From Calditrichota bacterium (GTDB taxonomy: Bacteria; Zhuqueibacterota; JdFR-76; BMS3Abin05): DNA of 33,367 bases. Shown here piece after piece: positions 6,736 to 23,602 of the stretch (positions within the stretch are counted from its first letter, which is position 1; every line of letters begins with the position of its first letter). The notes under the pieces are model-generated. The model saw only the letters and a list, made by a program, of their open reading frames with translations, searched no databases and had not been told where the DNA came from. The stretch is from positions 1 to 33,367 of the forward strand of contig JAADHR010000217.1 of NCBI GenBank assembly GCA_013151735.1, in the 5' to 3' direction. The position numbers and the translations under genes were made by a program.

Positions 6736-6753
6736 AAGGAGGAAAAAATCATG
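6736..6753 (+). promoter_or_regulatory. Shine-Dalgarno AAGGAGG that fixes the ligase start
   Basis: AAGGAGG at 6736-6742 lies eight bases before ATG 6751. This favours [10 protein letters not shown] as the N-terminus over the ATG at 6529, 74 codons upstream in the same frame. Confidence 0.85.
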
Positions 6754-8370
6754 ATGAATTATCCTTTAACATTAACGAACCTCATGAAACGAGGGGCGGC
6801 TTTATTTCCCAAAAAGGAATTGGTTTCACGGGAATTGGATGGAACCGTTGTTCGCCTCAATTACGGGGAATTTTACACACGAACCGCACAACTGGCCAAT
6901 GCCTTGCGCGAAATGGGCATTGCCAAAAATGATCGGGTGGGTACATTGGGCTGGAACACCCACCGGCATCTGGAACTCTATTTTGCCATACCCTGCATGG
7001 GGGCAACTTATCACACGGTGAATATCCGCCTTTCACCCGCGGATATCATTTATATTATTAATCATGCAGAAGATGAAATCCTTTTTTTTGATGCCGATCT
7101 GCTGCCCCTGGTGGAAGCCATCAAGGATAAAATCCATGTGAAAAAACTGGTCATTATGGGAAATCAAAAAAAATACGATACGAAACTGCCGGTTTTAAAT
7201 TATGAAGAGCTGATTTCGGATCAGCCCAAAAATTACAATTGGCCCGAATTGGATGAGTGGGATGTGGCGGGAATGGCTTACACCTCCGGGACAACGGGTG
7301 AGCCCAAGGGTGTGCAGTACACCCACCGGGGGCTGGTTTTGCACAGCATTGTGGCCGGTTTGCCGGATATTATGAACATCTCCGAAAGTACGGTTATGCT
7401 GCACATTGTTCCCATGTTTCACGCCAACGCCTGGAGCATTCCCTTCGTAACGACGATGTTGGGCTCCAAGCAGGTGTTTCCGGGGCCGCGGGCAATGCCC
7501 GAAGACATGATTCGGCTGATTGAAAATGAGCGGGTCACATTTACGGCAGCAGTTCCGGTAATTTTCAGAATGTTGTATGACTACCTGAAGGCGAACCCCG
7601 GCCATGACATCAGCTCGTGGAAACACGCGGTTTGCGGCGGATCGGCGCCTCCCGCCAGTTTAGTGAAGGCTTTCAAGGATGATTTTGATGTGGAAATTTA
7701 TCACGCCTACGGATTGACTGAAACCACCCCATTGCTTACCTGGAATGTTCCCAAGAGTACTATGAAGCTGGATGAAAAGAGCTACTACGAATTGAAAACC
7801 AAGCAGGGTCTTCTGGCACCCTTGCTGGACATGCGCGTGGAAAAAAGTGATGGAACCGAAGCAAAATGGGATGGTAAAGAAATGGGAGAACTTCTGGTTA
7901 AGGGGCCGTGGATAGCCAAAAACTATTACAAAGATCCCGACGAAACGTTTCGAAGAATGACAAACGGCTGGTTTCGAACAGGCGACATTGTGACGGTCGA
8001 TGAAGAAGGCTACGTTAAGATCGTGGATCGGATAAAGGATGTGATTAAGACCGGCGGCGAGTGGATTTCTTCGGTCGATCTGGAAAATGCCATTATGGCA
8101 CATCCCGGCGTGCAGGAGGCGACGGTTATTGGTTTACCGCATCCGAAATGGGACGAGCGCCCGCTGGCCTGCGTGGTTCCCAAGCCCGAAGCAAAAGGCA
8201 AATTGACAGAACAGGAAATTCTCGATTTTCTAACGCCAAAATTTGCCAAATGGTGGCTGCCGGATAAGATTGTTTTTATCGATGAAATACCCAAAACAAG
8301 CGTGGGCAAATTCGATAAAAAGGTGCTTCGGAAAAAGTACGAGAATCTGTATCAGAAAAGTGATAAATAG
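6751..8370 (+). CDS. Fatty-acyl-CoA ligase (AMP-forming, FadD/AlkK-like)
   Basis: ANL-superfamily enzyme of 539 residues that activates a carboxylic acid to its acyl-CoA through an acyl-adenylate. Visible motifs are A3 [11 protein letters not shown] (about 176), A5 YGLTETTP (about 320), A8 [20 protein letters not shown] (about 407) with [15 protein letters not shown], and A10 [11 protein letters not shown] (about 513), which keeps the catalytic lysine. WISSVDLEN is typical of the medium/long-chain AlkK-type group. It is the first gene of the beta-oxidation cluster and supplies its CoA thioester. Chain length and branching cannot be read from sequence. It differs clearly from the second ligase at 26423-27979. 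Confidence 0.92.
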
Positions 8371-8452: not shown

Positions 8453-9589
8453 ATGGATTTTGAATTGACGGATGAGCAAAAAATGCTTCAGGATATGGCG
8501 TATAAATTTGCGGTCAACGAATTCACCCCCATTGCCAAAGAATGTGATCGTGAGGAGAGATATCCGCGCGAGGTGTGGAAAAAGGCCTGTGAGAACGGGC
8601 TCATCGGGGCATTTATCCCTGAGGCCTATGGCGGTGCGGGTGTGGGAGTTTTTGAGAATGCCCTGATCACGGAGCAATTTTCTCGGGTTGATCTGGGGGT
8701 GGGTTCAATTGGAGCGGCTACATTTGGAGCGGAAAATATCATTCTTTTTGGTACGGAGGAGCAAAAGAAAAAATATCTTCCGCCTCTTGTAAATGGAGAG
8801 GCCATATCGGCCGGCGCCTACACCGAGCCGGATGCCGGAACGGATGTGGCGGGTATCAAGACCACGGCAAAAAAGGACGGCAGTGATTATGTGATTAACG
8901 GCAGTAAAATGTTTATCACCAACGGGACGATTTGTAATTTTATGATTGTGCTGGCTGTCACCAATCCTGAAGCGGAGAAGCGCCATCAGCGCCAGAGCCT
9001 GATTCTGGTGGAAGCGGATCGGGAAGGAATCACGCGGACCAAAATTCACGGTAAAATGGGCATTCGGGCTAGCGATACCGCGGAAATTGTGTTTGACAAC
9101 GTGCGGGTTCCCCAGTCCAATTTGATCGGCCAGGAGGGACGAGGGTTTTATGAAGTCATGCAGTTTTTCGATGTAACACGCCTTATGGTGGCTGCTCAGG
9201 GCGTTGGGTTGGCTCAGGGAGCGCTGGACCTGGCACTGAAATATGTTCAGGAACGAAAAACCTTCGGCCAGCCAATTATTGCCAATCAGGCCGTGCAGTT
9301 TAAACTGGCAGAAATGGCCACACACATTGAACTGGCACGAACCCTGACCTACCGGGCCGCCTGGCTGGCGGATAAGGGAACACCGGATCCCAAGTTGAAT
9401 GCAATGGCCAAATTTTACTCCGGCCAAACGGCCGTCTGGGTGGCCAATGAGGCGCTTCAGCTTCACGGAGGCTACGGGTACATTGACGAATATGACATCC
9501 AGCGCTTTTACCGCGATGCCCGGATTCTGGAAATTTACGAGGGCGTCCGGGAAGCCGAACTGATGACCATCGCCCGCCGGCTGGTGTGA
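8453..9589 (+). CDS. Acyl-CoA dehydrogenase
   Basis: FAD-dependent enzyme of 378 residues that forms the 2,3-trans double bond of acyl-CoA and passes electrons to ETF. It begins MDFELTDEQKML, typical for the family. Domain order is N-terminal helical, middle beta (AYTEPDAGTDVAGIKTTA, FITNG) and C-terminal helical (LQLHGGYGYIDEYDIQRFYRDARILEIYEG). The catalytic base is predicted as E363 in IYEG. The sequence after it, VREAELM, differs from the common TSEIQ. It starts behind AAGGAG. It has exactly the length of the second dehydrogenase at 12401-13537, but the sequences are well diverged. No ETF genes are in the window. Confidence 0.93.
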   Translation: MDFELTDEQKMLQDMAYKFAVNEFTPIAKECDREERYPREVWKKACENGLIGAFIPEAYGGAGVGVFENALITEQFSRVDLGVGSIGAATFGAENIILFGTEEQKKKYLPPLVNGEAISAGAYTEPDAGTDVAGIKTTAKKDGSDYVINGSKMFITNGTICNFMIVLAVTNPEAEKRHQRQSLILVEADREGITRTKIHGKMGIRASDTAEIVFDNVRVPQSNLIGQEGRGFYEVMQFFDVTRLMVAAQGVGLAQGALDLALKYVQERKTFGQPIIANQAVQFKLAEMATHIELARTLTYRAAWLADKGTPDPKLNAMAKFYSGQTAVWVANEALQLHGGYGYIDEYDIQRFYRDARILEIYEGVREAELMTIARRLV

Positions 9590-9664: not shown

Positions 9665-11062
9665 ATGGTTGGAATTTCAAAATACGGCGTCTATTTACCT
9701 GTGAAGCGTTTGAAGGCCGAAGAAATGGATCGGGCAGCAGGCGGCCCGGGCAGGGGAAAGGGCGAAAAAGCCGTGGCCAGTTTCGATGAAGATTCCCTCA
9801 CGCTGGGGGTGAATGCCCTTTACGAAGCAGGGGTTCTGAATGAGACGTCGGTGGATGCACTCTTTTTTGCCAGCACAACGGCTCCCTATCTGGAAAAATC
9901 CTCGGCGGCTCTGATGGCAGAAACCCTGCCGCTGACTTCGCCCCAATTTACGGTGGATTTTTCAGGGACCCTTCGGGCGGCCAGCAACGCCCTGATTTTG
10001 GGCATGCATCACATTCAGGCAAACGGTGCACGAATGGCACTTGCTGCAGCGGATACCCGCCTGGCGGATGTCTATTCAGCCGATGAACGCGCTGTTGGCG
10101 ACGGCGCGGCGGCCCTGCTTCTGGATTCCGGTACGGATCACGTGGCCGAGCTTACATTTGCAACCTCGACTTCCCAGGAAATCCTGGATGTCTGGCGAAA
10201 ACCGGGCGATCGCTTCTTAAAGATGACCGAGCCCCACTTTCGTCTCAAGTTCGGATTTAATAATGTGATTACAAGCCTGTTCAGGCAGTTCCTGAAAACG
10301 TCCGGAGTGAATCCGGGAACCATTCATCACATTGCTGTGAATGCCCCCAATGCGAAGCTGTTAATAGGATTGCTGAAACAGGTTAATCTCGAACCGGCAC
10401 CCCTCACCCTGCGGCTGTATCAGGAAATTGGCCACACGGGGGCCTCCTTCGGACTGCTGAATTTTCTGGCAGAATTGGAATCGGCTAAAGTGGGCGAGAC
10501 CATTCTCTGGCTGGATTACGGGGACGGCGCCAATGCGTTGCTGTTTCAGAAAACGGGGGAGGCTGAGACGCCTCAAATAGAAAGAGCCATCGGGCAAAAA
10601 CTCTATCTGAAATCGTATGAGGACTATTTGCGTTTAAGGAATTTGGTGGTTTCCGAGACCCCTCCGATGGAACCCTTTACCTCGGCCGTTATGAATTTTC
10701 GCGAGAAGCGGCAGAATTATGCGTTGGTAGCCCAGAAATGCAAGACTTGCGGGGAGGTGACCTATCCGCACAACCGCATTTGCCGAAAATGCAATGCAAA
10801 AGATAATTTTGAGTACCTGCCCATTAGTCTGGAAGGAAAGATCTTTACTTTTACGAAAGAATACTTGTACCCCTCACCGGAGGGTGTGGCGGTGACCGCC
10901 AGCGCCGATATGGACTCCGGTGTGCGTTTGTTTTTGCAGGTCACCGATTCGGATTACGACAAAATTGAGGTGGGACAGCGGGTCCGGCGTACCTTCCGAA
11001 AACTGCACGATGCAGGCGGGTTTCACAATTATTTTTGGAAATTTCGGGTAATTGAAGGGTAG
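9665..11062 (+). CDS. HMG-CoA-synthase-like / DUF35 (zinc ribbon-OB) fusion, catalytic residues missing
   Basis: A 465-residue protein. Residues 1 to about 320 have the KAS-III/HMG-CoA-synthase form of the thiolase fold (YGVYLPVKRL, VGDGAAALLLD, GHTGASFGLLNFL). Residues about 340-465 are a DUF35 module with a zinc ribbon C359-x2-C362 … C373-x2-C376 and an OB-like domain. The first 358 residues contain no cysteine. By my alignment the nucleophile region reads VDFSGTLRAASNAL, the Glu site of archaeal HMG-CoA synthase (SES) reads STT (70-72), the His site reads NAPN (226-229), and the KAS GNTG Asn is H257. It therefore cannot use the normal Cys-Glu-His chemistry. In archaea HMGCS, thiolase and DUF35 form a complex; here the next gene is a thiolase. 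It could be an aldolase-like enzyme or a scaffold. Substrate unknown. Confidence 0.8.
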   Translation: MVGISKYGVYLPVKRLKAEEMDRAAGGPGRGKGEKAVASFDEDSLTLGVNALYEAGVLNETSVDALFFASTTAPYLEKSSAALMAETLPLTSPQFTVDFSGTLRAASNALILGMHHIQANGARMALAAADTRLADVYSADERAVGDGAAALLLDSGTDHVAELTFATSTSQEILDVWRKPGDRFLKMTEPHFRLKFGFNNVITSLFRQFLKTSGVNPGTIHHIAVNAPNAKLLIGLLKQVNLEPAPLTLRLYQEIGHTGASFGLLNFLAELESAKVGETILWLDYGDGANALLFQKTGEAETPQIERAIGQKLYLKSYEDYLRLRNLVVSETPPMEPFTSAVMNFREKRQNYALVAQKCKTCGEVTYPHNRICRKCNAKDNFEYLPISLEGKIFTFTKEYLYPSPEGVAVTASADMDSGVRLFLQVTDSDYDKIEVGQRVRRTFRKLHDAGGFHNYFWKFRVIEG

Positions 11063-11166: not shown

Positions 11167-12351
11167 ATGAGCCTAAAAAATAAGGTCGCCATTATTGGCG
11201 TGGGATGCACAAAATTTGGCGAGAATTTCGATCTGGATTACAAAGACATGCTGGTGGATTCCTACACAGAGGCCCTGGAGGATGCCGGTATCGAGCCGAA
11301 GGACATCGATGCCGCGTGGCTGGCAACGGCCTTCCCCGATATGGCGCATTTCGAAGGCAACAGTGGGAGTTCCCTGGCCGAACCCTTAAATCTTTACAAC
11401 AGGCCGGTCACCCACGTTACCAATTACTGCGCCACCGGAATGGACGCCGTCCGGAATGCGGCCATGGCCGTGGCCTCTGGTAACGCGCGGTTTGCCTACA
11501 TCGGCGGCGTGGAAAAAATGCGGGACGTGGGTCCGCGGGAAAGCCTGATTGCCCAGGTGGTAAAGACCGGCCACCCGGTCGTGGGAAAAGGGGCCACGGC
11601 TCCGGGCATGTTTGCCATGCTGGAAACCCGCTACATGGCCAAATACGGCGTAGACCGCACCCCCTTTGCGGAGGTGTCGGTAAAAAATCACGCCAACGGC
11701 AGCCTGAACCCAAAAGCGCATTTCGGCCGTCCGGTTACCCTTGAAGCCGTTCTGAAGGCTCCGATGATCGCCTATCCCCTGAGCCTTTACGAGTGCACGC
11801 CGGTGAGCGACGGCTCGGCCTCGGTCATCATCACGACGCCCGAAATTGCAAAAAGTCTGAAAAAGGATTACATCCTGGTGAAGGCCATGAGCCTCTCCAT
11901 CGATGCCGGCTACACCCCGCAATTCGACAAATACAATGAGTTTCTTGGGTTTAAAGCCACCCAGCACGCGGCCGTTATGGCGTACCAGGAGGCCGGAATT
12001 AAAAATCCCCATGACGAAATCGATTTTGCCGAGGTGCATGACTGCTTCACCATCACGGAAGTCGTGAATTACGAGGATTTGCAGTTCTGTTCCCGCGGCG
12101 ACGGATGGAAATTTATCCACGAGGGGCACTCCTCACTGGAAGGCGACTTGCCGGTGAATCCCAGCGGCGGACTGCAGTCCAGCGGACACCCCATTGGCGC
12201 AACCGGGGTGCGGATGGTTTACGAACTGGTGACCCAGTTGCGGGGAAAGGCGGGCAAGCGCCAGGTGAAAAACGCCCGCGTGGGATTGGCTCACAACCTG
12301 GGCGGCCCCGGCTCTGTGGCCAGCGTGGCGATTCTGGCGCGGCCGGATTGA
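11167..12351 (+). CDS. Thiolase, SCP2/SCPx type
   Basis: A 394-residue thiolase-superfamily enzyme, predicted to cleave 3-oxoacyl-CoA with CoA. Features seen are the nucleophile C88 in NYCATGMDAV, EVHDCFT (H291, C293), NPSGGLQSSGHPIGATG (H341) and a C-terminal HNLGGPGSVASVAIL where classical FadA thiolases have a CxG motif. HDCF and NLGGPG are characteristic of the SCP2/SCPx-like group, which in animals acts on branched acyl chains. Start ATG 11167 lies behind GGGAG. It follows the HMGCS-like/DUF35 fusion, an arrangement like archaeal thiolase-HMGCS-DUF35 systems. A complex between the two is inference. Confidence 0.88.
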   Translation: MSLKNKVAIIGVGCTKFGENFDLDYKDMLVDSYTEALEDAGIEPKDIDAAWLATAFPDMAHFEGNSGSSLAEPLNLYNRPVTHVTNYCATGMDAVRNAAMAVASGNARFAYIGGVEKMRDVGPRESLIAQVVKTGHPVVGKGATAPGMFAMLETRYMAKYGVDRTPFAEVSVKNHANGSLNPKAHFGRPVTLEAVLKAPMIAYPLSLYECTPVSDGSASVIITTPEIAKSLKKDYILVKAMSLSIDAGYTPQFDKYNEFLGFKATQHAAVMAYQEAGIKNPHDEIDFAEVHDCFTITEVVNYEDLQFCSRGDGWKFIHEGHSSLEGDLPVNPSGGLQSSGHPIGATGVRMVYELVTQLRGKAGKRQVKNARVGLAHNLGGPGSVASVAILARPD

Positions 12352-12400
12352 GAACCTGGGCTGTTTTGATTTTGTTATCTGAATGAACGAGGCGATTCAA

Positions 12401-13537
12401 ATGGATTTTTCATTAACGGATGAGCAGAAGGCGCTGCGGGAGATGGCCCGGAAATTTGCGGCGAAGGAAATCAGTCCCATTGCGGCGGAATACGACGAAA
12501 GGGAGGAGTTCCCTTTTCAGGTGGCGGAAAAGGCCTTTGCGGCCGGTCTGATGAACGCGTTGGTGCCGGAGGCCTACGGAGGCGGCGGATTGTCCCTTCT
12601 GGATACGCTGGTTCTTCAGGAGGAACTGGCCTACGGATGCGCCGGAATTGCGTCCATGCTTTTTATCAACAATATTGCCCTGACCCCTCTGGTGCTGGCA
12701 GGGACGGAGGCACAAAAGGAAAAATTCCTGCGCCCCATCTGCGAAGCCCCGAAGTTTGCAGCCATCTGCATCAGCGAACCGGGTTCCGGCTCGGATGTGG
12801 CCAGCATCTCCACCACAGCCCGAAAGACGGGCGACCGCTACATCCTGAACGGGACTAAAATTTTCATCACGGCCGGGGGAGTGGCCGATTTTTACACCGT
12901 TCTGGCCTATACGGACAAGTCGAAACGCCACCACGGCATGAGCTGCTTTGCGGTTCCGCGATCCACACCCGGCATTACCATCAGCAAAAAGTTTGACAAG
13001 ATGGGCCAGCGCGCCGCCAATACCGTGGAAATGGCATTTGACGATGTGGAAATCCCCGCCGAAAATCTCATCGGGCAAGAGGGCGAGGGTTTCAAACTGA
13101 TCATGCAAACATTTAACGAAAGCCGCCCCGGCGTGGCAATTTCTGCCATTGGCATTGCCCGGCGCGCCTTTGACGAGGCGCTCCACTACAGCCAGACCCG
13201 CCAGCAGTTCGGGCGGCCGATTTTCGAGTTCCAGTCGCCGCAGTTTTTGCTGACGGATATGACCACAAAGATCGCCGCCGGCCGGTGGCTGGCCTACCAC
13301 GCAGCCTGGCTTTTCGATCAGGGGAAAAACAACGCCCGGGAAGCGGCGATGGCCAAAGCCTTTTGTGCGGATGCCGTCATGGAAATCACCACCAACGCCG
13401 TGCAGATTTTTGGCGGTTACGGCTACATGCGTGAATATCCCGTGGAAAAGCTCATGCGCGACGCCAAGGTGGTTCAAATTTACGAAGGCACCACACAGAT
13501 TCAGAATGTTCTGATTGCAAAAAGTTTGAAAAAATAA
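12401..13537 (+). CDS. Acyl-CoA dehydrogenase (second)
   Basis: A 378-residue FAD-dependent dehydrogenase. I chose ATG 12401 (MDFSLTDEQKAL) because CGAGG at 12388-12392 lies eight bases before it and the N-terminus matches the family. The in-frame ATG at 12383 has no ribosome site. Motifs are SEPGSGSDVASISTTA, FITAGG, QIFGGYGYMREYPVEKLMRDAKVVQIYEGTTQIQN and the catalytic base E362. The ending is the classical short/medium-chain form, unlike the first dehydrogenase. Both paralogues keep the catalytic Glu, so they look like two separate homo-oligomers rather than an alpha2-beta2 pair with one dead subunit. Different chain lengths or branching are a likely reason for having two. Confidence 0.93.
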   Translation: MDFSLTDEQKALREMARKFAAKEISPIAAEYDEREEFPFQVAEKAFAAGLMNALVPEAYGGGGLSLLDTLVLQEELAYGCAGIASMLFINNIALTPLVLAGTEAQKEKFLRPICEAPKFAAICISEPGSGSDVASISTTARKTGDRYILNGTKIFITAGGVADFYTVLAYTDKSKRHHGMSCFAVPRSTPGITISKKFDKMGQRAANTVEMAFDDVEIPAENLIGQEGEGFKLIMQTFNESRPGVAISAIGIARRAFDEALHYSQTRQQFGRPIFEFQSPQFLLTDMTTKIAAGRWLAYHAAWLFDQGKNNAREAAMAKAFCADAVMEITTNAVQIFGGYGYMREYPVEKLMRDAKVVQIYEGTTQIQNVLIAKSLKK

Positions 13538-13664: not shown

Positions 13665-14480
13665 ATGGAGCTGCTCAAAAATAAAACGGCATTGATCACC
13701 GGCTCCGGCCGGGGAATTGGAAAAGCAACGGCGCTGGCATTTGCTCAGAATGGCGCCAATGTGGTGATTAACGACTTGGATGAAGATGTGGCGGTAGAAA
13801 CGGCCGCCGAAGTGGAAAAGTGGGGTGTGGGTACGGCTGTTTGTGCCGGCGACGTGACGGCTGAAGATTTTCCGGAACGCTTTCTGAAAACAGCCCTTGA
13901 GAAATTTGGCGGGATTGACATCCTTGTGAACAATGCGGGTTTTACCTGGGATGCCATGATCCACAAAATGACCGATGAGATGTGGGATGCCATTCTCAAT
14001 GTTCATCTGAAGGCGCCGTTCCGGATTTTGCGGGAATTTGGAAAATATCTGCGGGAAAAAAGCGACACCGAAAAGCCGATGACCCCCCGAAAGGTGGTGA
14101 ATGTAACGTCCGTAGCCGGATTGGGCGGAAACATCGGGCAGTCCAATTATGCCTCGGCCAAGTCCGGCGTGGTGGGACTCACCAAAACCCTGGCCAAAGA
14201 ATGGGGGCGCTACAACGTCACTGTGAATGCGGTGGCGTTCGGTGCCATCGAAACCCGTTTAACCATGGAAAAAGAGGGCAGCGAAACGGCCGACATCCAT
14301 GGCATCAAAATCCCCATTGGCATTCCCAAAAATGTACGCGATATGTTTATCAAGATGATTCCCCTCGGCCGCATCGGCCGTCCGGAAGAGGCTGCCAATT
14401 CCATTTTGTACCTGGCCTCGCCGTTGTCCAGTTACATTACGGGACATGTTCTGGAGTGTACCGGGGGGTTGAAACTTTAA
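13665..14480 (+). CDS. SDR-family 3-hydroxyacyl-CoA dehydrogenase (FabG/MFE-2-like)
   Basis: Short-chain dehydrogenase/reductase of 271 residues. The Rossmann motif is TGSGRGIG (about 11-18), then NNAG (about 88-91), the catalytic Ser in NVTSVAG (about 149) and YASAK (Y162, K166). NDLDED after strand beta2 places an Asp where the NAD(H) ribose sits, which favours NAD over NADP. The family includes FabG and the (3R)-hydroxyacyl-CoA dehydrogenase half of peroxisomal multifunctional enzyme 2. With a MaoC hydratase in the same cluster and no FadB-type enzyme, oxidation of (3R)-3-hydroxyacyl-CoA is the best guess. It starts behind GGAGG. Confidence 0.88.
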   Translation: MELLKNKTALITGSGRGIGKATALAFAQNGANVVINDLDEDVAVETAAEVEKWGVGTAVCAGDVTAEDFPERFLKTALEKFGGIDILVNNAGFTWDAMIHKMTDEMWDAILNVHLKAPFRILREFGKYLREKSDTEKPMTPRKVVNVTSVAGLGGNIGQSNYASAKSGVVGLTKTLAKEWGRYNVTVNAVAFGAIETRLTMEKEGSETADIHGIKIPIGIPKNVRDMFIKMIPLGRIGRPEEAANSILYLASPLSSYITGHVLECTGGLKL

Positions 14481-14655: not shown

Positions 14656-15801
14656 ATGCCACTTCGTGATTTGAAAATTCTTGATGTGTCCCGGCTGCTG
14701 CCTGGCCCCTATGCTGCTATGATTCTTGCGGAATTCGGGGCGCGTGTAATTAAAATTGAAGATCCGGCCGGAGGAGAGCCCCTGCGCGCCACAACCCCCA
14801 AGCTTCAGGGCGAAAGTATCTATTTTTCGGCTCTGAATCGGGGGAAAAGGAGCCTTACGCTCAACCTGAAATCGGAGGAAGGGCGGGCTATTTTCCGCCG
14901 GCTGGTGGCCTCGAGCGACGTGCTGGTGGAGGGCTTTCGGCCGGGGGTGATGAAAAAACTGGGGCTGGATTTTGACTCGTTGAAAGAAACCAACCCCCGG
15001 CTGATTTACTGTGCGATCACCGGATACGGACAGTCAGGTTCCGATGCCGGCCGGGCCGGGCACGATTTGAATTATCTTGCAAAAAGCGGTCTCCTGGATT
15101 TCCTTCAAAAGGACGGGCAGCCCATTGTGCCGGGCTTTCAATTGACAGACATTGTCGGCGGCACCCTTCAGGCACTGGTAGGGATTCTTCTGGCACTGAT
15201 TCAGCGGGAAAAAACGGGTCTCGGGCAGATGGTGGACGTCTCGATGGCCGACGGGGCGCTGTTGTTTCTGCCCCTGATTCTGGCCGAATTCGGCCTGCCG
15301 CACCTGCCGCCCAACCCGGTCGGCGGGTTCTTTGCCTGCTATTCTCTTTACCCCACACGGGATGGGCGGACACTATCTGTGGCCTGTTACGAGCGAAAGT
15401 TCTGGGAGGGCTTCTGCCGTGCGCTGGGGCACGAGAAGTGGATTTCTTTGCAATTTAATCCTGATCCGGCAGTGCAGGAAAATCTAAAAACACAAATTTC
15501 AAAAATTATTGCGTCCAAGCCCCTGGCCCATTGGGTGGATATTTTTACCCCGTTAAACATTTGTGTGGAACCCGTACAATCCCTGGATGAGGTAGTAGAC
15601 GATCCCCATTTTCGGGAACGGGGCGATCTGTTTCGGGAAAACGGCATTTTCAATCTGCATTTTCCGCTTCACGGAAGCCAATTGAAAAAGCATCCCGGCA
15701 TCCGGCCGCCGAAATTGGGAGAGCACACGGAAGAGATCCTGGGCGAATTGGGTTTCTCATCGGAGGAAGTACGGAAGCTAAAAGAAACGGGTGTTGTTTG
15801 A
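14656..15801 (+). CDS. CaiB/BaiF family, alpha-methylacyl-CoA racemase-like
   Basis: A 381-residue class III CoA-transferase-family protein. Two features favour the racemase branch: GHDLNYLA (H136, D137), which matches the GHDINY histidine motif of alpha-methylacyl-CoA racemase, and D165 in LTDIVGG, 29 residues later, against a spacing of 30 in the mycobacterial enzyme. The N-terminus has the family's LDVSRLLPGPYAAMILAEFGARVIKIE. The racemase converts (2R)- to (2S)-2-methylacyl-CoA so that dehydrogenases can act on branched chains. A formyl- or succinyl-CoA transferase cannot be fully excluded, but the cluster already has a ligase. It starts behind CGGAG. Confidence 0.82.
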   Translation: MPLRDLKILDVSRLLPGPYAAMILAEFGARVIKIEDPAGGEPLRATTPKLQGESIYFSALNRGKRSLTLNLKSEEGRAIFRRLVASSDVLVEGFRPGVMKKLGLDFDSLKETNPRLIYCAITGYGQSGSDAGRAGHDLNYLAKSGLLDFLQKDGQPIVPGFQLTDIVGGTLQALVGILLALIQREKTGLGQMVDVSMADGALLFLPLILAEFGLPHLPPNPVGGFFACYSLYPTRDGRTLSVACYERKFWEGFCRALGHEKWISLQFNPDPAVQENLKTQISKIIASKPLAHWVDIFTPLNICVEPVQSLDEVVDDPHFRERGDLFRENGIFNLHFPLHGSQLKKHPGIRPPKLGEHTEEILGELGFSSEEVRKLKETGVV

Positions 15802-16084: not shown

Positions 16085-16546
16085 ATGAAGTTTAAAAAAT
16101 CGGGAAAGTATTTTGAGGATTTTGAAATCGGTGAAGTGTTTGAAACCGTGGGGCGGACGATTACTGAAACGGACATCGTTAATTTTTCCACCTTTTCGGG
16201 GGATTTCAATGCCATTCACACCAATGAAGAATTTGCCAAAACCACACTTTTTAAACGGCGGGTCGCCCAGGGAGCGGCCATCTTTTCAATTCTGACAGGA
16301 CTGTTGTACCGCGAGGGATTTATGGAGGGAACCGTGATCGCTTTTCTGGGTGTGAACGACTGGAAATTCCTGGCTCCGGTTTTCGCCGGGGATACGATTT
16401 ACGGTCGGGCGGAGGTAACAAATTCCCGCAAATCGTCCAAGCAGAATACCGGAATCGTGACATTCGCAGTAGAGGTTCTCAATCAGAGAGACGAGGTCGT
16501 TCAAAAAGGGACGTTTGTGCTGATGTTTGAAGGAAGGCCTGCCTGA
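16085..16546 (+). CDS. MaoC-like (R)-specific enoyl-CoA hydratase
   Basis: Hot-dog-fold hydratase of 153 residues that adds water to 2-trans-enoyl-CoA, giving (3R)-3-hydroxyacyl-CoA. The catalytic pair is D40 and H45 in GDFNAIHTN, the usual MaoC/PhaJ motif with Ala in place of Pro. The length is that of a single-domain PhaJ-type enzyme. The typical start FEIGEVFETVGRTITETDIVNF is present. It starts behind GGGAG and is the last gene of the cluster, followed by a probable terminator. It is the only enoyl-CoA hydratase candidate in the window, so it probably serves the whole spiral. Confidence 0.9.
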   Translation: MKFKKSGKYFEDFEIGEVFETVGRTITETDIVNFSTFSGDFNAIHTNEEFAKTTLFKRRVAQGAAIFSILTGLLYREGFMEGTVIAFLGVNDWKFLAPVFAGDTIYGRAEVTNSRKSSKQNTGIVTFAVEVLNQRDEVVQKGTFVLMFEGRPA

Positions 16547-18085: not shown

Positions 18086-18262
18086 CCAGGGGATGCAAAT
18101 ATGCACTGGATTGCCAGAGACTTATGATGCTTTTTGTCCTTAATTATGTAGTTTGTGCGGAATGTATGTTGTAAATAACAAGCTTGTAAAAACACAACGG
18201 GAAATGACTGATTGGGAACAGACCCTATTTACGCGAAAAATCCAGGCGACTTGAAAAAAGCC

Positions 18263-19849
18263 ATGATGAAATCCGCAAAAATGGCGGTTTTAATTTTTGC
18301 CTTGCTAACAGTTGGCTGCCATGCAAATAAAAATCCCCTGAAGGCCGAGGGGGCGCACACCGGCAAAGTTGTCAGACTGCCGGGAAGCCCCTATCCGGTT
18401 TCACAGAGTCCCCAAAGGCTTTTTGTTGTGGATGATGCGCAGTTTAGCCGGGCGCAGATTTTGGCAATTGAAACCCTTCAGGGCGTGGTGGCACAAACCC
18501 GTCCCGAAATTTACCGTGTGCGCGGGCCCGGGTACGCCCGGTGGCTGCAGAATTTTCAGGACGATCTCGGCGTGCGGATTGACGAAACGTACCGGTCGGA
18601 TTTTGAGGGGCTCTTTTCTCATTTTAAAAACAGAATTTCGGGCTATTTTCTTTGCAATCCGAACGATGCCTCGGTCAATGTGGCCATTTCTCTGTGCGGA
18701 GTGCGTCAGGGCGTTGCAGCCACTCCGGAAACACGGCCTGTTCTGGATCGTCTTGGCATTCCCCTGCTCGGGGATGTGCGCGGGGAAGGCATAAACAATT
18801 TGATTCAGGGCTATTCCGCTGAATTTTCCAGAAAAGGCGTTTGCTATCAGCGGGAATCGATGGCTTTCAATTTAGCCGATTTTGCAGTTTTCGGGAGATT
18901 TATTTCCTTTTTCGCGCCGATTTCGGGAGCAATCACGAAGGAGGTTTTTGATCTTCTGGAACCAAACAGCCCGCTTTTGGGGTGGGGAGATGATGAATTC
19001 CAACTTGTTCAGCAGAGCAGCCGTCACGCACTTTTCGTGCATCCGGCTGACTGGGCAATTAATTTGTCCACGTTAAGCAATTTTTCGGCGGAACTGCACC
19101 AGCAAACACCCGTTTTACCGCAGGAAAACACGGCAGGCGATTTCCACACCGTTTGTTTTGTTATGACCGACGGCGACAATATCCAGTGGCTGTTAAATGA
19201 TTTTTCAACGGATGTCCGCTGGTACGGAAGCCCGGATCGGGGGAAAATCCCTCTGGGCTGGACGATTTCTCCGGCAATGTCTGAGCTGGCGCCCACTGTT
19301 ATGAAATTCTTCTACGAAACCGCGGCGAATTCAAAACGTGGCCGGGATTATTTTATTGCGGCTCCCTCCGGTTTGGGGTACGTCTACCCCGACAGGTACT
19401 CGGATTTGGCCGGATTTAGTCAATTGACGGCCCGATTCATGAAAAAATCTGATTTGCATATTTTAAATATCATTGGAAATGACCGCTCAACCGCTTTCCT
19501 GAAGCCCTTTTTGCAGTATCCTGAAGTTGACGCCATTTTCTACTACGATTATTCAAATTACTCGGGGGGAAACGGGCGCATCGATTGGATTGCCGGCAAA
19601 CCGGTCATTTCCGGACGCTACAATTTGTGGAAGGGATTTGAAACGCCCGCTTCGCTCTCGGCCAAGCTCAATGCACTGCCCAAAAACAGCCATTCCCCGG
19701 ACGGTTACAGCCTGATCCCGGTTCACGTGTGGTCAAATGGGGTCGCAGAAGTCCTGGCCTGCGTGAAACAACTGGGCACAAATGTGCAGGTAGTGGCACC
19801 GGACAGATTTGTTCAATTGATTGTGCAAAATCTTAAACCAGGCAAATAA
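18263..19849 (+). CDS. GxGYxYP-family putative glycoside hydrolase, lipoprotein
   Basis: A 528-residue exported protein. It carries SGLGYVYPDRYSDLAGF, the motif that names the GxGYxYP family, a putative glycoside-hydrolase fold of unproven activity. VMTDGDNIQWLLNDF and IFYYDYSNYSGGNGRI are further conserved acidic segments. The N-terminus MMKSAKMAVLIFALLTVGC is a lipoprotein signal with Cys at residue 19. I chose ATG 18263 for that signal. No clear Shine-Dalgarno is present and the frame is open to an ATG at 18212. The upstream neighbour is a Na+ symporter. Two bases separate its stop from the next gene, an ABC exporter, so translation may be coupled. Confidence 0.8.
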   Translation: MMKSAKMAVLIFALLTVGCHANKNPLKAEGAHTGKVVRLPGSPYPVSQSPQRLFVVDDAQFSRAQILAIETLQGVVAQTRPEIYRVRGPGYARWLQNFQDDLGVRIDETYRSDFEGLFSHFKNRISGYFLCNPNDASVNVAISLCGVRQGVAATPETRPVLDRLGIPLLGDVRGEGINNLIQGYSAEFSRKGVCYQRESMAFNLADFAVFGRFISFFAPISGAITKEVFDLLEPNSPLLGWGDDEFQLVQQSSRHALFVHPADWAINLSTLSNFSAELHQQTPVLPQENTAGDFHTVCFVMTDGDNIQWLLNDFSTDVRWYGSPDRGKIPLGWTISPAMSELAPTVMKFFYETAANSKRGRDYFIAAPSGLGYVYPDRYSDLAGFSQLTARFMKKSDLHILNIIGNDRSTAFLKPFLQYPEVDAIFYYDYSNYSGGNGRIDWIAGKPVISGRYNLWKGFETPASLSAKLNALPKNSHSPDGYSLIPVHVWSNGVAEVLACVKQLGTNVQVVAPDRFVQLIVQNLKPGK

Positions 19850-19851
19850 CG

Positions 19852-21603
19852 GTGAAATATTCGGTTTTTTCAGCTCTAAAGAAATACGTAATTCGCTACA
19901 AATGGAACTATCTCGCAGGCCTGTTTTTCGCCGTTTTGACGATTGGTTTTCGCGCGACCATTCCACTCTTATTGCGCTATCCCATTGATAAACTTCGTGA
20001 GGGTACCTCCAGTGAGGTGGTGGCCCAATTTGCCCTTTTGATTTTCCTTGCGGCCGTGCTTGCTGCTGTTTTTCGCTTTGGCATGAGACGAACGCTTATG
20101 GGAATATCCCGCCGAATAGAATTTGATATTCGAATAGACTATTTTTCTCACTTGCAGAAACTTTCACCGGCATTTTATCAGGGGGTGCGTACCGGCGATC
20201 TGATGGCACGCGCCACCAACGATCTAAATGCCATTCGCAACCTTCTGGGGCCGGGAATTGCTAACCTTATGAACACGGTGATTTTTTCGTTTGTGGCGAT
20301 CGCGATGATGATCAAAATCGATCTCAGACTGACCCTTTTGGCGCTCATTCCGTTTCCCTTTGTTTCTATTCTGGCCGCGCGGGCCATGAAACAGATTCAT
20401 AAACTTTTTGATGAAATTCAGGCCCAATTCTCGAAAATTTCGGCCAAGGCCCAGGAAAATTTTTCGGGAATTCGTGTGGTTAAAGCGTATGTTCAGGAGA
20501 AAAATGAGATCAATCGCTTTCATAAACTCAGCCGCGGATTTTTTCAAAAAAACCTGCGTCTGGCGCGCGTTCGAAGTATTCTAATTTCGGGAATGACCTT
20601 CCTGACGGGACTGGGTGCCGTTATTGTTCTCTGGATCGGCGGTACGATGGTTGTAAAGGGACGGATCACACTGGGTGAGTTTGTGGCATTTAATACCTAT
20701 CTGATGATGCTCACCTGGCCTACCATTGCACTGGGTTGGATCATCAACCTTTACCAGCAGGGGACGGCCTCCATGAAACGAATTCTCGAAATCATGAATC
20801 GCAAACCCCTCATTCAGGATTCTCCCGATACGCGATGGGACATCCGGAAGCTTAAAGGCGCCATTCAGCTTGAGGATGTGTCATTTGCTTACCCGGGAAC
20901 GGAAACGCCTGTTCTTAAGAATGTAACGCTTCGCATTTCCGCCGGCAAAAAGCTTGGAATTGTCGGAAATATCGGCTCCGGGAAAACCACCCTGGTCCGA
21001 TTACTGACCCGCCAGTACGATGTAACCACCGGGTGCATTTGTTTGGATGGGGTGGATATCCGCCGCATCCCATTGAAGGTGCTCCGCCAGTCCATTGGCT
21101 ACGTGCCCCAGGATAACTTTTTGTTTTCGACCACGGTCCGGGAGAATATCACATTTGGTCTGGAGACCGCTTCGGAAGAGGAGGTACAAACCGCAGCGGA
21201 AATGGCCGCAATTGCCGATGAAATCAGGGCGTTTCCGCACGGATTTGATACGGAGCTTGGCGAGAGGGGCATTAATCTGTCCGGGGGACAGAAGCAGCGC
21301 GTGGGGCTGGCTCGTGCGCTGATCAAAAATCCCCCTATTTTTATTCTGGATGATGCCTTCTCGGCTGTTGATTCCAGCACGGAACGGCGTATTCTGGAAA
21401 ACCTGAAGCAGACATTTGAGGGCAGTACGGTGATCATGATTTCTCACCGCATTTCGTCGCTGACGGGATTTGATGAAATCGTCGTGCTTTCCGGAGGGAA
21501 AATTGTGGAGCAGGGGAATCATCAACAGTTAATGGAACGCAACGGCATTTATGCCGATTTGTTCCGAAAACAGCAGCTGGAAAAGGAACTGGAAGAAATT
21601 TAA
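19852..21603 (+). CDS. ABC exporter half-transporter, degenerate-site subunit (MdlA/BmrC-like)
   Basis: A 583-residue ABC type IV exporter subunit. Six membrane helices (about 20-300) are followed by an ATPase domain with Walker A GNIGSGKTT (372-380), signature LSGGQ (476-480) and Walker B FILDD (D500, D501). The catalytic glutamate after Walker B is Asp (DDAFSAVD), which marks a low-activity site. The partner is the next exporter gene, which has a normal Glu but a degenerate signature, as in heterodimers such as BmrCD or TM287/288. It starts with GTG, two bases after the upstream stop, without a good ribosome site. Substrate unknown; lipids, peptides or drugs are typical. Confidence 0.9.
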   Translation: MKYSVFSALKKYVIRYKWNYLAGLFFAVLTIGFRATIPLLLRYPIDKLREGTSSEVVAQFALLIFLAAVLAAVFRFGMRRTLMGISRRIEFDIRIDYFSHLQKLSPAFYQGVRTGDLMARATNDLNAIRNLLGPGIANLMNTVIFSFVAIAMMIKIDLRLTLLALIPFPFVSILAARAMKQIHKLFDEIQAQFSKISAKAQENFSGIRVVKAYVQEKNEINRFHKLSRGFFQKNLRLARVRSILISGMTFLTGLGAVIVLWIGGTMVVKGRITLGEFVAFNTYLMMLTWPTIALGWIINLYQQGTASMKRILEIMNRKPLIQDSPDTRWDIRKLKGAIQLEDVSFAYPGTETPVLKNVTLRISAGKKLGIVGNIGSGKTTLVRLLTRQYDVTTGCICLDGVDIRRIPLKVLRQSIGYVPQDNFLFSTTVRENITFGLETASEEEVQTAAEMAAIADEIRAFPHGFDTELGERGINLSGGQKQRVGLARALIKNPPIFILDDAFSAVDSSTERRILENLKQTFEGSTVIMISHRISSLTGFDEIVVLSGGKIVEQGNHQQLMERNGIYADLFRKQQLEKELEEI

Positions 21604-21784: not shown

Positions 21785-23602
21785 ATGCGGCACGGAGTCG
21801 GAAAAAGTTTTCTGGAAGAAGATGTAGTTGGAAAGGCCTACGATAGCCGGATTGTCAAACGGCTTTTTGCCTATTTGCATCCGTACCGTTTGCAGGTGGT
21901 TGCGGCCGTGGTGGTGTTGGTACTGCTCTCGCTGGCTCAGCTTGCGGGCCCGCTTCTGACGAAAATTGCCATCGACCGTTTTATTGTTCCCAAAAATATT
22001 CCCGGACTTTTTCAAATATCCCTGGTTTTCTTTTCGATTCTTCTCCTGGAGCTTATCCTTCAATTGATTCAGATCAATCTTATGGAATGGATTGGCCAGA
22101 ATGTGATGTTTGATATCCGGATGGCCACATTTTCCCATCTCCAGAAAATGGACATTCAATTCTTCGATCGAAATCCGGTGGGACGGCTGGTTACGCGCGT
22201 AACAACCGATGTGGCCGCTCTCCAGGACGTGTTTACCTCGGGCGTCGTGGCTATTTTCGGGGATTTGTTCATGCTTTCCGGGATCATTATTGTCATGCTG
22301 GTGCTCAATTGGAAACTGGCCCTGGTCACCTTCAGCGTTTTACCCCTCTTGATTTATGCCACGTTTTTGTTTCGCAGAAAAGTCCGGGATAATTACCGGC
22401 GCGTGCGGTTTCTCATTGCAAAATTAAATGCCTTTCTTCAGGAAAATATCTCCGGAATGGTCATTGTTCAGTTATTTAATCGGGAAAAACGGAACTTCCA
22501 GCAGTTTAAAGAACTCAACCAGGAAACCCTGCAAACACAATTAAAAACGATTCTCTACTTTTCAATGTTCGGTCCCAGCGTGGATGCAATCAGTTATTTT
22601 GCCATTGCTCTCATTATCTGGTTTGGGGGCATTCAATACAATGCCGGAGGCTTGACCCTTGGCATACTGGTTGCATTTATTCAATACGCCCAACGCTTTT
22701 TCCGGCCCATCAGCGATCTGGCTGAGAAATACAATATTTTGCAGAGTGCCATGGCGTCTTCGGAACGCATTTTTAAGATCCTCGATGAAAAGCCGCAGAT
22801 TATTTCACCGGCGAAACCGGTACCGTTTCGGCATTTTGAAAATCGAATTCAGTTTGATCACGTGTGGTTTGCCTACAAAGATGAAGACTGGGTGTTGAGG
22901 GATGTTTCGTTCGAGGTAAAGAAGGGGCAGAGGGTAGCACTGGTGGGAGCAACGGGGGCAGGCAAAACGTCGATTATCAGTTTGCTGGCCCGTTTTTATG
23001 ATGTCCAGCAGGGGCGTATTCTTATTGATGGAACAGACATTCGCCGGTTTGCCATTCCCGATTTACGACGGAAAATTGCCATTGTGTTACAGGATGTGTT
23101 TCTGTTTTCAGGGAGTGTGGCAGACAACATCCGTCTGGGCGAAAATTTACCCGAGGAAACCGTGCATGAAGCTGCAAAAATCGCCAACGCCCATGAATTC
23201 GTTCAATCCCTGCCGGCCGGTTATCTAACGGATGTAAAGGAGCGCGGCACCTCCCTTTCGCTGGGACAGCGGCAGCTTCTCTCTTTTGCCCGGGCCCTGG
23301 CCTTCAACCCGGAGATTCTTGTTCTGGACGAAGCCACCTCCAGCGTGGACACCCAGACCGAAATGATGATTCAGGACGCGCTGGAGCGCCTTCTTGAAAA
23401 TCGGACGGCCATCATCATTGCCCATCGGCTGTCGACCATTCAACATTCCGATAAGATTTTGGTCATTCACAAAGGGGAGATTCGGGAATCCGGAACGCAT
23501 CAGGAGCTCCTGGCGCAACACGGCATTTATTACCGGCTTTACAAACTTCAGTTTGAAGAACAACAAATGGGAGAGATTCGGATTGAAGATTCGCAGGCAT
23601 AA
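21785..23602 (+). CDS. ABC exporter half-transporter, catalytic subunit (MdlB/BmrD-like)
   Basis: A 605-residue ABC type IV exporter subunit with six N-terminal membrane helices and an ATPase domain. Walker A is GATGAGKT (388-395), the signature is LSLGQ (491-495) instead of LSGGQ, and Walker B is LVLDE with catalytic E516, followed by an H-loop in IIAHRLST. In a dimer with the preceding subunit, this Walker B/Glu pairs with the intact LSGGQ of the partner, giving one active and one degenerate site. It starts at ATG 21785 behind a weak GAGA. The final codons and the stop lie inside a tandem repeat that begins at 23584. Confidence 0.9.
   Translation: MRHGVGKSFLEEDVVGKAYDSRIVKRLFAYLHPYRLQVVAAVVVLVLLSLAQLAGPLLTKIAIDRFIVPKNIPGLFQISLVFFSILLLELILQLIQINLMEWIGQNVMFDIRMATFSHLQKMDIQFFDRNPVGRLVTRVTTDVAALQDVFTSGVVAIFGDLFMLSGIIIVMLVLNWKLALVTFSVLPLLIYATFLFRRKVRDNYRRVRFLIAKLNAFLQENISGMVIVQLFNREKRNFQQFKELNQETLQTQLKTILYFSMFGPSVDAISYFAIALIIWFGGIQYNAGGLTLGILVAFIQYAQRFFRPISDLAEKYNILQSAMASSERIFKILDEKPQIISPAKPVPFRHFENRIQFDHVWFAYKDEDWVLRDVSFEVKKGQRVALVGATGAGKTSIISLLARFYDVQQGRILIDGTDIRRFAIPDLRRKIAIVLQDVFLFSGSVADNIRLGENLPEETVHEAAKIANAHEFVQSLPAGYLTDVKERGTSLSLGQRQLLSFARALAFNPEILVLDEATSSVDTQTEMMIQDALERLLENRTAIIIAHRLSTIQHSDKILVIHKGEIRESGTHQELLAQHGIYYRLYKLQFEEQQMGEIRIEDSQA

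Follow-up and report, generated by a model that had tools for sequence, protein, structure and literature searches.

On its forward strand, the window (the whole stretch of DNA analysed, 33,367 nucleotides from a Calditrichota bacterium) carries an operon that is a β-oxidation set of the MaoC/SDR/SCP2-thiolase type, in the midst of which a single gene fuses an HMG-CoA synthase (HMGCS)-like domain to a DUF35 module (Table 1). Such sets often process branched or bulky acyl-CoAs, and the substrate of this operon probably belongs to the same class. The operon enzymes shared with the sister species (G001), the fusion aside, are 82–89 % identical between the two, compared with 60 % for the CoA-transferase encoded at 14656–15801; as such, the latter may not be the same gene in the sister species. 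Further along the window lie a putative GxGYxYP glycoside hydrolase gene (18212–19849) and then two ABC exporters (19852–21603 and 21785–23602), which are unrelated to the fusion.

Table 1. Position and supporting evidence of the fusion gene, its sites and the surrounding operon genes (G001, sister species)
Feature	Position	Strand	Evidence
Acyl-CoA ligase (AMP-binding), first gene of the cluster	6751..8370	+	PF00501 2.5e-78; synteny in G001 and locus L012
Acyl-CoA dehydrogenase 1	8453..9589	+	Pfam; synteny in G001, 86 % identity
Pseudo-HMGCS–DUF35 fusion gene, 465 aa	9665..11062	+	Single unbroken ORF
HMG-CoA-synthase-like (thiolase-fold) domain, residues 1–328	9665..10648	+	NF003274 1.5e-40; family profile against PDB
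T71, position of the HMGCS catalytic Glu	9875..9877	+	About 90 % of fusion homologues have Thr, 0/74 have Glu
L103, position of the HMGCS nucleophilic Cys	9971..9973	+	Cys in 0/74
N226, position of the catalytic His	10340..10342	+	Variable, His in 2/74
H257, position of the Asn of GNT	10433..10435	+	Variable in homologues
DUF35 module (ChsH2-type zinc ribbon and OB fold), residues 339–465	10679..11059	+	PF12172, PF01796
Zinc-ribbon cysteines C359, C362, C373, C376	10739..10792	+	Each present in 72/74 homologues
SCP2-type thiolase (putative partner), 394 aa	11167..12351	+	PF22691 2.7e-48; NF004810 over cut-off; motifs
Acyl-CoA dehydrogenase 2	12383..13537	+	Pfam; synteny in G001
Short-chain dehydrogenase (SDR; 3-hydroxyacyl-CoA dehydrogenase-like)	13665..14480	+	Pfam, NCBIfam; synteny in G001
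Class III CoA-transferase	14656..15801	+	PF02515 9.3e-104
MaoC-type (R)-enoyl-CoA hydratase	16085..16546	+	PF01575 2.7e-27

The fusion had been proposed in a first-pass annotation of the sequence, and was confirmed here by its ORF and by Pfam and NCBIfam matches. In its C-terminal part, zf-ChsH2 (PF12172) was matched over the cut-off (5.7e-8), and OB_ChsH2_C (PF01796) scored 26.7 of 27.1 bits (5.4e-6), 0.4 bits short, in one Pfam run and passed the cut-off in a second; the protein has the Cys4 zinc ribbon followed by an OB fold that characterizes DUF35. For residues 1–328, the NCBIfam HMGCS model NF003274 returned 139 of the 244 bits needed and TIGR00748 returned 89 of 353, placing the fusion below both curated equivalog cut-offs for active archaeal-type HMG-CoA synthase. 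A structure prediction, for which the alignment consisted of the window protein and two relatives, reached a pLDDT of 42, too low to be of use.

As a homologue set we extracted 74 fusions, the sampling being biased towards one phylum and plasmids. A single-protein scan of genome contigs found two relatives only, with the rest coming from whole-genome searches, and a scan of viral contigs found none. An orthologue of 67 % identity exists in the same genus (whole-genome search), another, in the MAG Anaerolineae S014_12, is 71 % identical, and many further matches share 30–39 % identity. In the phylum to which a Desulfobacteraceae MAG belongs, 107 of 395 sampled genomes contain a match at E ≤ 1e-35, frequently more than one; matches also occur in 36 plasmid records, from Rhodococcus, Mycobacterium, Sphingobium, Azoarcus, haloarchaea and others. 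The fusion is uncommon in the window's own phylum, where 3 of 82 genomes carry it and the one further match is to a canonical HMGCS that is not fused. The family is large, and some of its members lie on catabolic plasmids of actinobacteria, proteobacteria and haloarchaea. The Desulfobacteraceae MAG (G082, 2.3 Mb) encodes six paralogous fusions (L015, L016 and L018–L021), each with its own adjoining thiolase. Additionally, two relatives have four domains, L090 (5428–8244, + strand, 939 aa) and L096 (951 aa), in which pseudo-HMGCS and DUF35 parts are succeeded by an SDR and an SCP2 part and the gene is directly followed by a thiolase; Pfam, run on L090, placed the SDR at residues 526–714 and the SCP2 sterol-carrier domain at 849–936.

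The genome from which the window derives keeps a separate canonical HMGCS operon on another contig (G000:C213; loci L004, L005 and L085), which thus served as an internal ruler for the catalytic positions of the fusion. Its synthase has Cys, Glu and His intact, and is accompanied by a thiolase, a stand-alone DUF35 protein and an enoyl-CoA hydratase-like gene. We placed the catalytic sites by alignment to this protein (GSESHPY, FACKAG, HMPN and IGNTYS), and the Cys column was the same whether MAFFT or a profile alignment against archaeal HMGCS 6esq_I was used. The Glu, His and Asn sites fell where they had first been mapped, at T71, N226 and H257, whereas the Cys site is L103, the earlier T102 being one residue off. 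The fusion therefore lacks the Cys, Glu and His of an active archaeal-type HMG-CoA synthase. It had also been noted that the protein contains no Cys before residue 359 and only four in total, all in the zinc ribbon, and the translation bears this out (residues 359, 362, 373 and 376). At the Cys frequency of the neighbours, their absence from 358 residues has a probability of about 0.04, which is mildly improbable taken alone, and the HMGCS-like domain is entirely free of Cys in just 4 of the 74 homologues. This rules out complete absence of Cys as a trait of the family; in the window protein it is incidental. Loss at the catalytic positions, in contrast, with neither Cys nor Glu in any of the 74, is far beyond chance.

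The first-pass annotation had named free variation of the substituted positions, as in a pseudoenzyme under no constraint, as an outcome that would speak against its reading. This is so for two of them: the Cys position is occupied by Leu (41), Thr (11), Gln (7), Ile (5), Val (4) or Ala, Met, Gly, Pro or Arg, and the His position by eleven residues (P, Y, S, A, N, D, F, T, C, V and H). The Asn position holds a mixture of residues (N 28, D 17, Y 8, F 7 and H 5, with Q, E and V also present), and at the Glu position Thr is fixed in about nine-tenths of the family. Across the 74 fusions we saw neither a conserved replacement nucleophile nor, within the HMGCS-like domain, any conserved Cys, His or Tyr that canonical HMGCS does not also have. 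Conserved among the fusions and different from canonical HMGCS are T71, S102, R104, R132, G145–D146 and G259. As T71, S102, R104, R132 and G145–D146 are both conserved and specific to the family, the old catalytic site is remodelled and still constrained, rather than simply abandoned, a point that counts against the partner model proposed below; the substitution pattern is that of a pseudoenzyme under structural constraint.

An unrooted tree of 43 fusions, 16 canonical HMGCS and three PhlA-type chains (one of these on a long branch) placed each group on one side of a branch, with support of 99/96 for the fusions, 100/99 for canonical HMGCS and 100/98 for the PhlA-type chains. The fusions form one clade (bootstrap 99) apart from canonical HMGCS, and when canonical HMGCS is assumed as the root, the Cys-less PhlA-type chains group with them as sister. 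The HMGCS-like domain of the fusion evolves faster than its neighbours, with 63 % identity to the sister species compared with 89 % for the thiolase and 91 % for the canonical HMGCS. It nevertheless stays under purifying selection: dN/dS is about 0.08–0.13 for this domain, 0.046 for the thiolase and 0.03 for the canonical HMGCS, these being rough NG86 values with saturated dS.

The product of the thiolase gene directly downstream has its catalytic residues intact (C88, the H291-D-C293-F motif and H341) and carries the nucleophilic Cys, HDCF and GHP by which SCP2-type thiolases are recognized; its relatives in the PDB are 7yvy, 4yzo and 6esq_A. A thiolase gene adjoins the fusion in 51 of the 52 longer loci, usually directly downstream with a small gap or none and, in haloarchaeal plasmids, upstream. 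Counting canonical HMGCS as well, 76 of 78 homologues have a thiolase neighbour on the same strand. Where the sequences could be read, these thiolases retain the nucleophilic Cys (71/73), HDCF (71/71) and the GHP His (70/70). Distances for the HMGCS-like domain and the thiolase are correlated (mirror-tree r = 0.74, permutation p 0.0005, 68 pairs). Adjacency and correlated distances may equally reflect shared operon inheritance without contact, and are therefore to be taken as support for a partnership and not as proof; some loci, in haloarchaea and at L061, have no intact thiolase, or none at all, on the downstream side, which counts against it. At one of the Desulfobacteraceae loci (L018, G082:C251) the thiolase nucleophile is itself lost, with Ser in NASGTG and HDCF and GHP kept, such that a catalytic Cys is found in neither the fusion nor the thiolase.

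When the family profile was compared with the PDB, the best matches were a PhlA homologue (9skh_A, 1.7e-71), PhlA (5m3k_A, 4.2e-69) and archaeal HMGCS (6esq_I, 4.8e-66), whilst the DUF35 half matched 6esq_E, PhlB (5m3k_B), BbsA (7pxp_A) and ChsH2 (6ok1_B). The PhlABC Friedel–Crafts acyltransferase of Pseudomonas (5m3k, 9skh) resembles the window in combining an HMGCS-like subunit devoid of Cys and Glu with a DUF35 protein and an active thiolase-type subunit. PhlA, which had been termed an inactive member of the thiolase superfamily in 2010 (PMC2954200), has neither the Cys nor the Glu found in archaeal HMGCS. Dimers of PhlA and PhlC are connected by PhlB, and their sites together line a single continuous cavity; acyl transfer involves residues of PhlC alone, and the enzyme is active only when all three subunits are co-expressed (PMC6392133). 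The fusion shares with PhlA the same Glu-to-Thr change and the co-encoded DUF35 and thiolase-type parts, and groups with it rather than with canonical HMGCS (in the unrooted tree, with its three PhlA-type rows). PhlA and PhlB, however, are separate chains of low sequence identity to the single chain of the window, and PhlABC is a CoA-independent acyltransferase from a biosynthetic operon, whereas the window has an SCP2 thiolase of catabolic type in a β-oxidation operon. The archaeal acetoacetyl-CoA thiolase/HMGCS/DUF35 complex (6esq) has the same three modules and gene neighbours, and its HMGCS aligns clearly and has the same fold; according to papers citing the work on this complex, its HMGCS is active, with Cys, Glu and His, and its DUF35 is a chain of its own, whereas the synthase of the window is dead and fused. 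Benzoylsuccinyl-CoA thiolase BbsAB (7pxp) likewise pairs a catabolic thiolase with a DUF35-type zinc-finger partner, and both parts match the window, but it has no HMGCS-like part.

Taken together, we consider it probable that the fusion is a catalytically dead HMGCS-like and DUF35 protein acting as a non-catalytic partner of the adjacent thiolase, much as PhlA and PhlB do for PhlC. Support for this comes from the loss of the catalytic set, the conserved zinc site, the intact thiolase next to it, the correlated distances, the purifying selection and the grouping with PhlA, and from the separate canonical HMGCS, thiolase and DUF35 genes of the same genome. The simplest reading would be that the window protein unites PhlA and PhlB in a single chain and serves the thiolase encoded at 11167–12351. 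The two would form a physical complex, and the fusion would itself have no activity: through its DUF35 part it would attach to the thiolase and supply one wall of the acyl-CoA cleft of that enzyme, its HMGCS-like part, a dimer, would keep the assembly in one piece and line a shared cavity, and bond cleavage would be carried out entirely by Cys88, His291/Cys293 and His341 of the thiolase. The substrate would be a 3-oxoacyl-CoA supplied by the ligase or CoA-transferase, the acyl-CoA dehydrogenases, the MaoC hydratase and the SDR.

A more specific proposal, which we advance only tentatively, is that the dead synthase domain has been remodelled into a chamber that binds acyl-CoA, forming part of the pocket or channel of a catabolic thiolase, and that this is a widespread device. 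If so, the thiolase could accept bulky or branched 3-oxoacyl-CoAs, and the fixed Thr at the Glu site would be a binding residue, together with the family-specific Arg, Asp and Gly. We regard as rather unlikely the related explanation that the domain is a ligand-binding or gating subunit, holding the acyl group or CoA of a bulky substrate in the manner of chain-length factors while the thiolase performs the chemistry. Consistent with it are the conserved, family-specific residues at or near the old site, from T71, S102, R104 and R132 to G145–D146 and G259, and the Gln found at the Cys position in seven homologues, a residue known from chain-length factors. It would also fit the fusion of two relatives to SDR and SCP2 domains and the cavity shared by PhlA and PhlC (PMC6392133). 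Against it, the Cys and His positions themselves are freely variable.

The first-pass annotation had put the scaffold idea beside another, an aldolase-type carbon–carbon cleavage as in Ltp2. The prevalence of intact adjoining thiolases, the correlated distances and the nearest solved relatives, PhlA and archaeal HMGCS, favour the former, and the latter found no support. Thiolase folds that have lost the Cys can still support aldol chemistry, as in Ltp2 and Sal (PMC12329534), and T71 and a few Arg and Asp positions are strongly conserved, so that the HMGCS-like domain might have gained some other activity, such as retro-aldol cleavage or hydrolysis, through other residues. In the steroid aldolases Ltp2–ChsH2 and Sal–Shy (6ok1; PMC12329534) a DUF35 protein is docked on a thiolase-fold partner as proposed for the window, but that thiolase-fold chain is the counterpart of the neighbouring thiolase, and an HMGCS-like domain is absent from these systems. 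The fusion matches only the DUF35 chain (6ok1_B), whilst Ltp2 (6ok1_A) matches the thiolase, which has HDCF and Cys88 as in true SCP2 thiolases in place of the YDHF of Ltp2; the fusion is thus not closest to the Ltp2 chain, and the catalytic Tyr motif (YDHF/YDCY type) is missing from the window thiolase. Once Ltp2 had been mapped to the neighbouring thiolase the aldolase reading was rejected, as the fusions are freely variable at their Cys and His positions and we saw in them neither a new conserved Cys, His or Tyr nor a conserved nucleophile to replace the lost one. Given also that the adjoining intact thiolase already supplies a cleavage step, a Cys-independent enzyme of any kind appears highly improbable. 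A decaying HMGCS gene, with which the faster evolution of the domain would agree, can be dismissed almost outright, as the first-pass annotation had judged: full-length open frames throughout the 74 homologues from several phyla refute a pseudogene, and dN/dS is about 0.1 with the zinc site and synteny kept.

The concept of an inactive partner is already published for PhlA (PMC2954200, PMC6392133). We came across no account of the fused catabolic family in the literature searched, a body that most subscription journals fall outside, and within it the fused, catabolic version of a PhlA-type partner is apparently new. Recognizing the fusion as a non-catalytic thiolase partner suggests that PhlABC is one case within a wider class of thiolase assemblies, most of them degradative. 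It would also correct the database names now given to the family ('HMG-CoA synthase', 'OB-fold domain-containing protein' and 'synthase III C-terminal'), and separate it from the real enzymes of the mevalonate pathway. Furthermore, plasmid p3 of Novosphingobium sp. ES2-1 encodes a member of the family (L073, 6995–8392) that has Leu in place of the Cys, Thr in place of the Glu and an adjoining thiolase, in a cluster whose gene order matches the estradiol edc operon OpA of Novosphingobium tardaugens. By gene order alone, its counterpart there is EGO55_13555, an edc 'HMG-CoA synthase' to which no step has been assigned and for which thiolase activity was suggested (PMC7793797). On this basis EGO55_13555 very probably belongs to the fusion family, and a role as thiolase partner would give a candidate function to a gene that the published estradiol pathway leaves unassigned.
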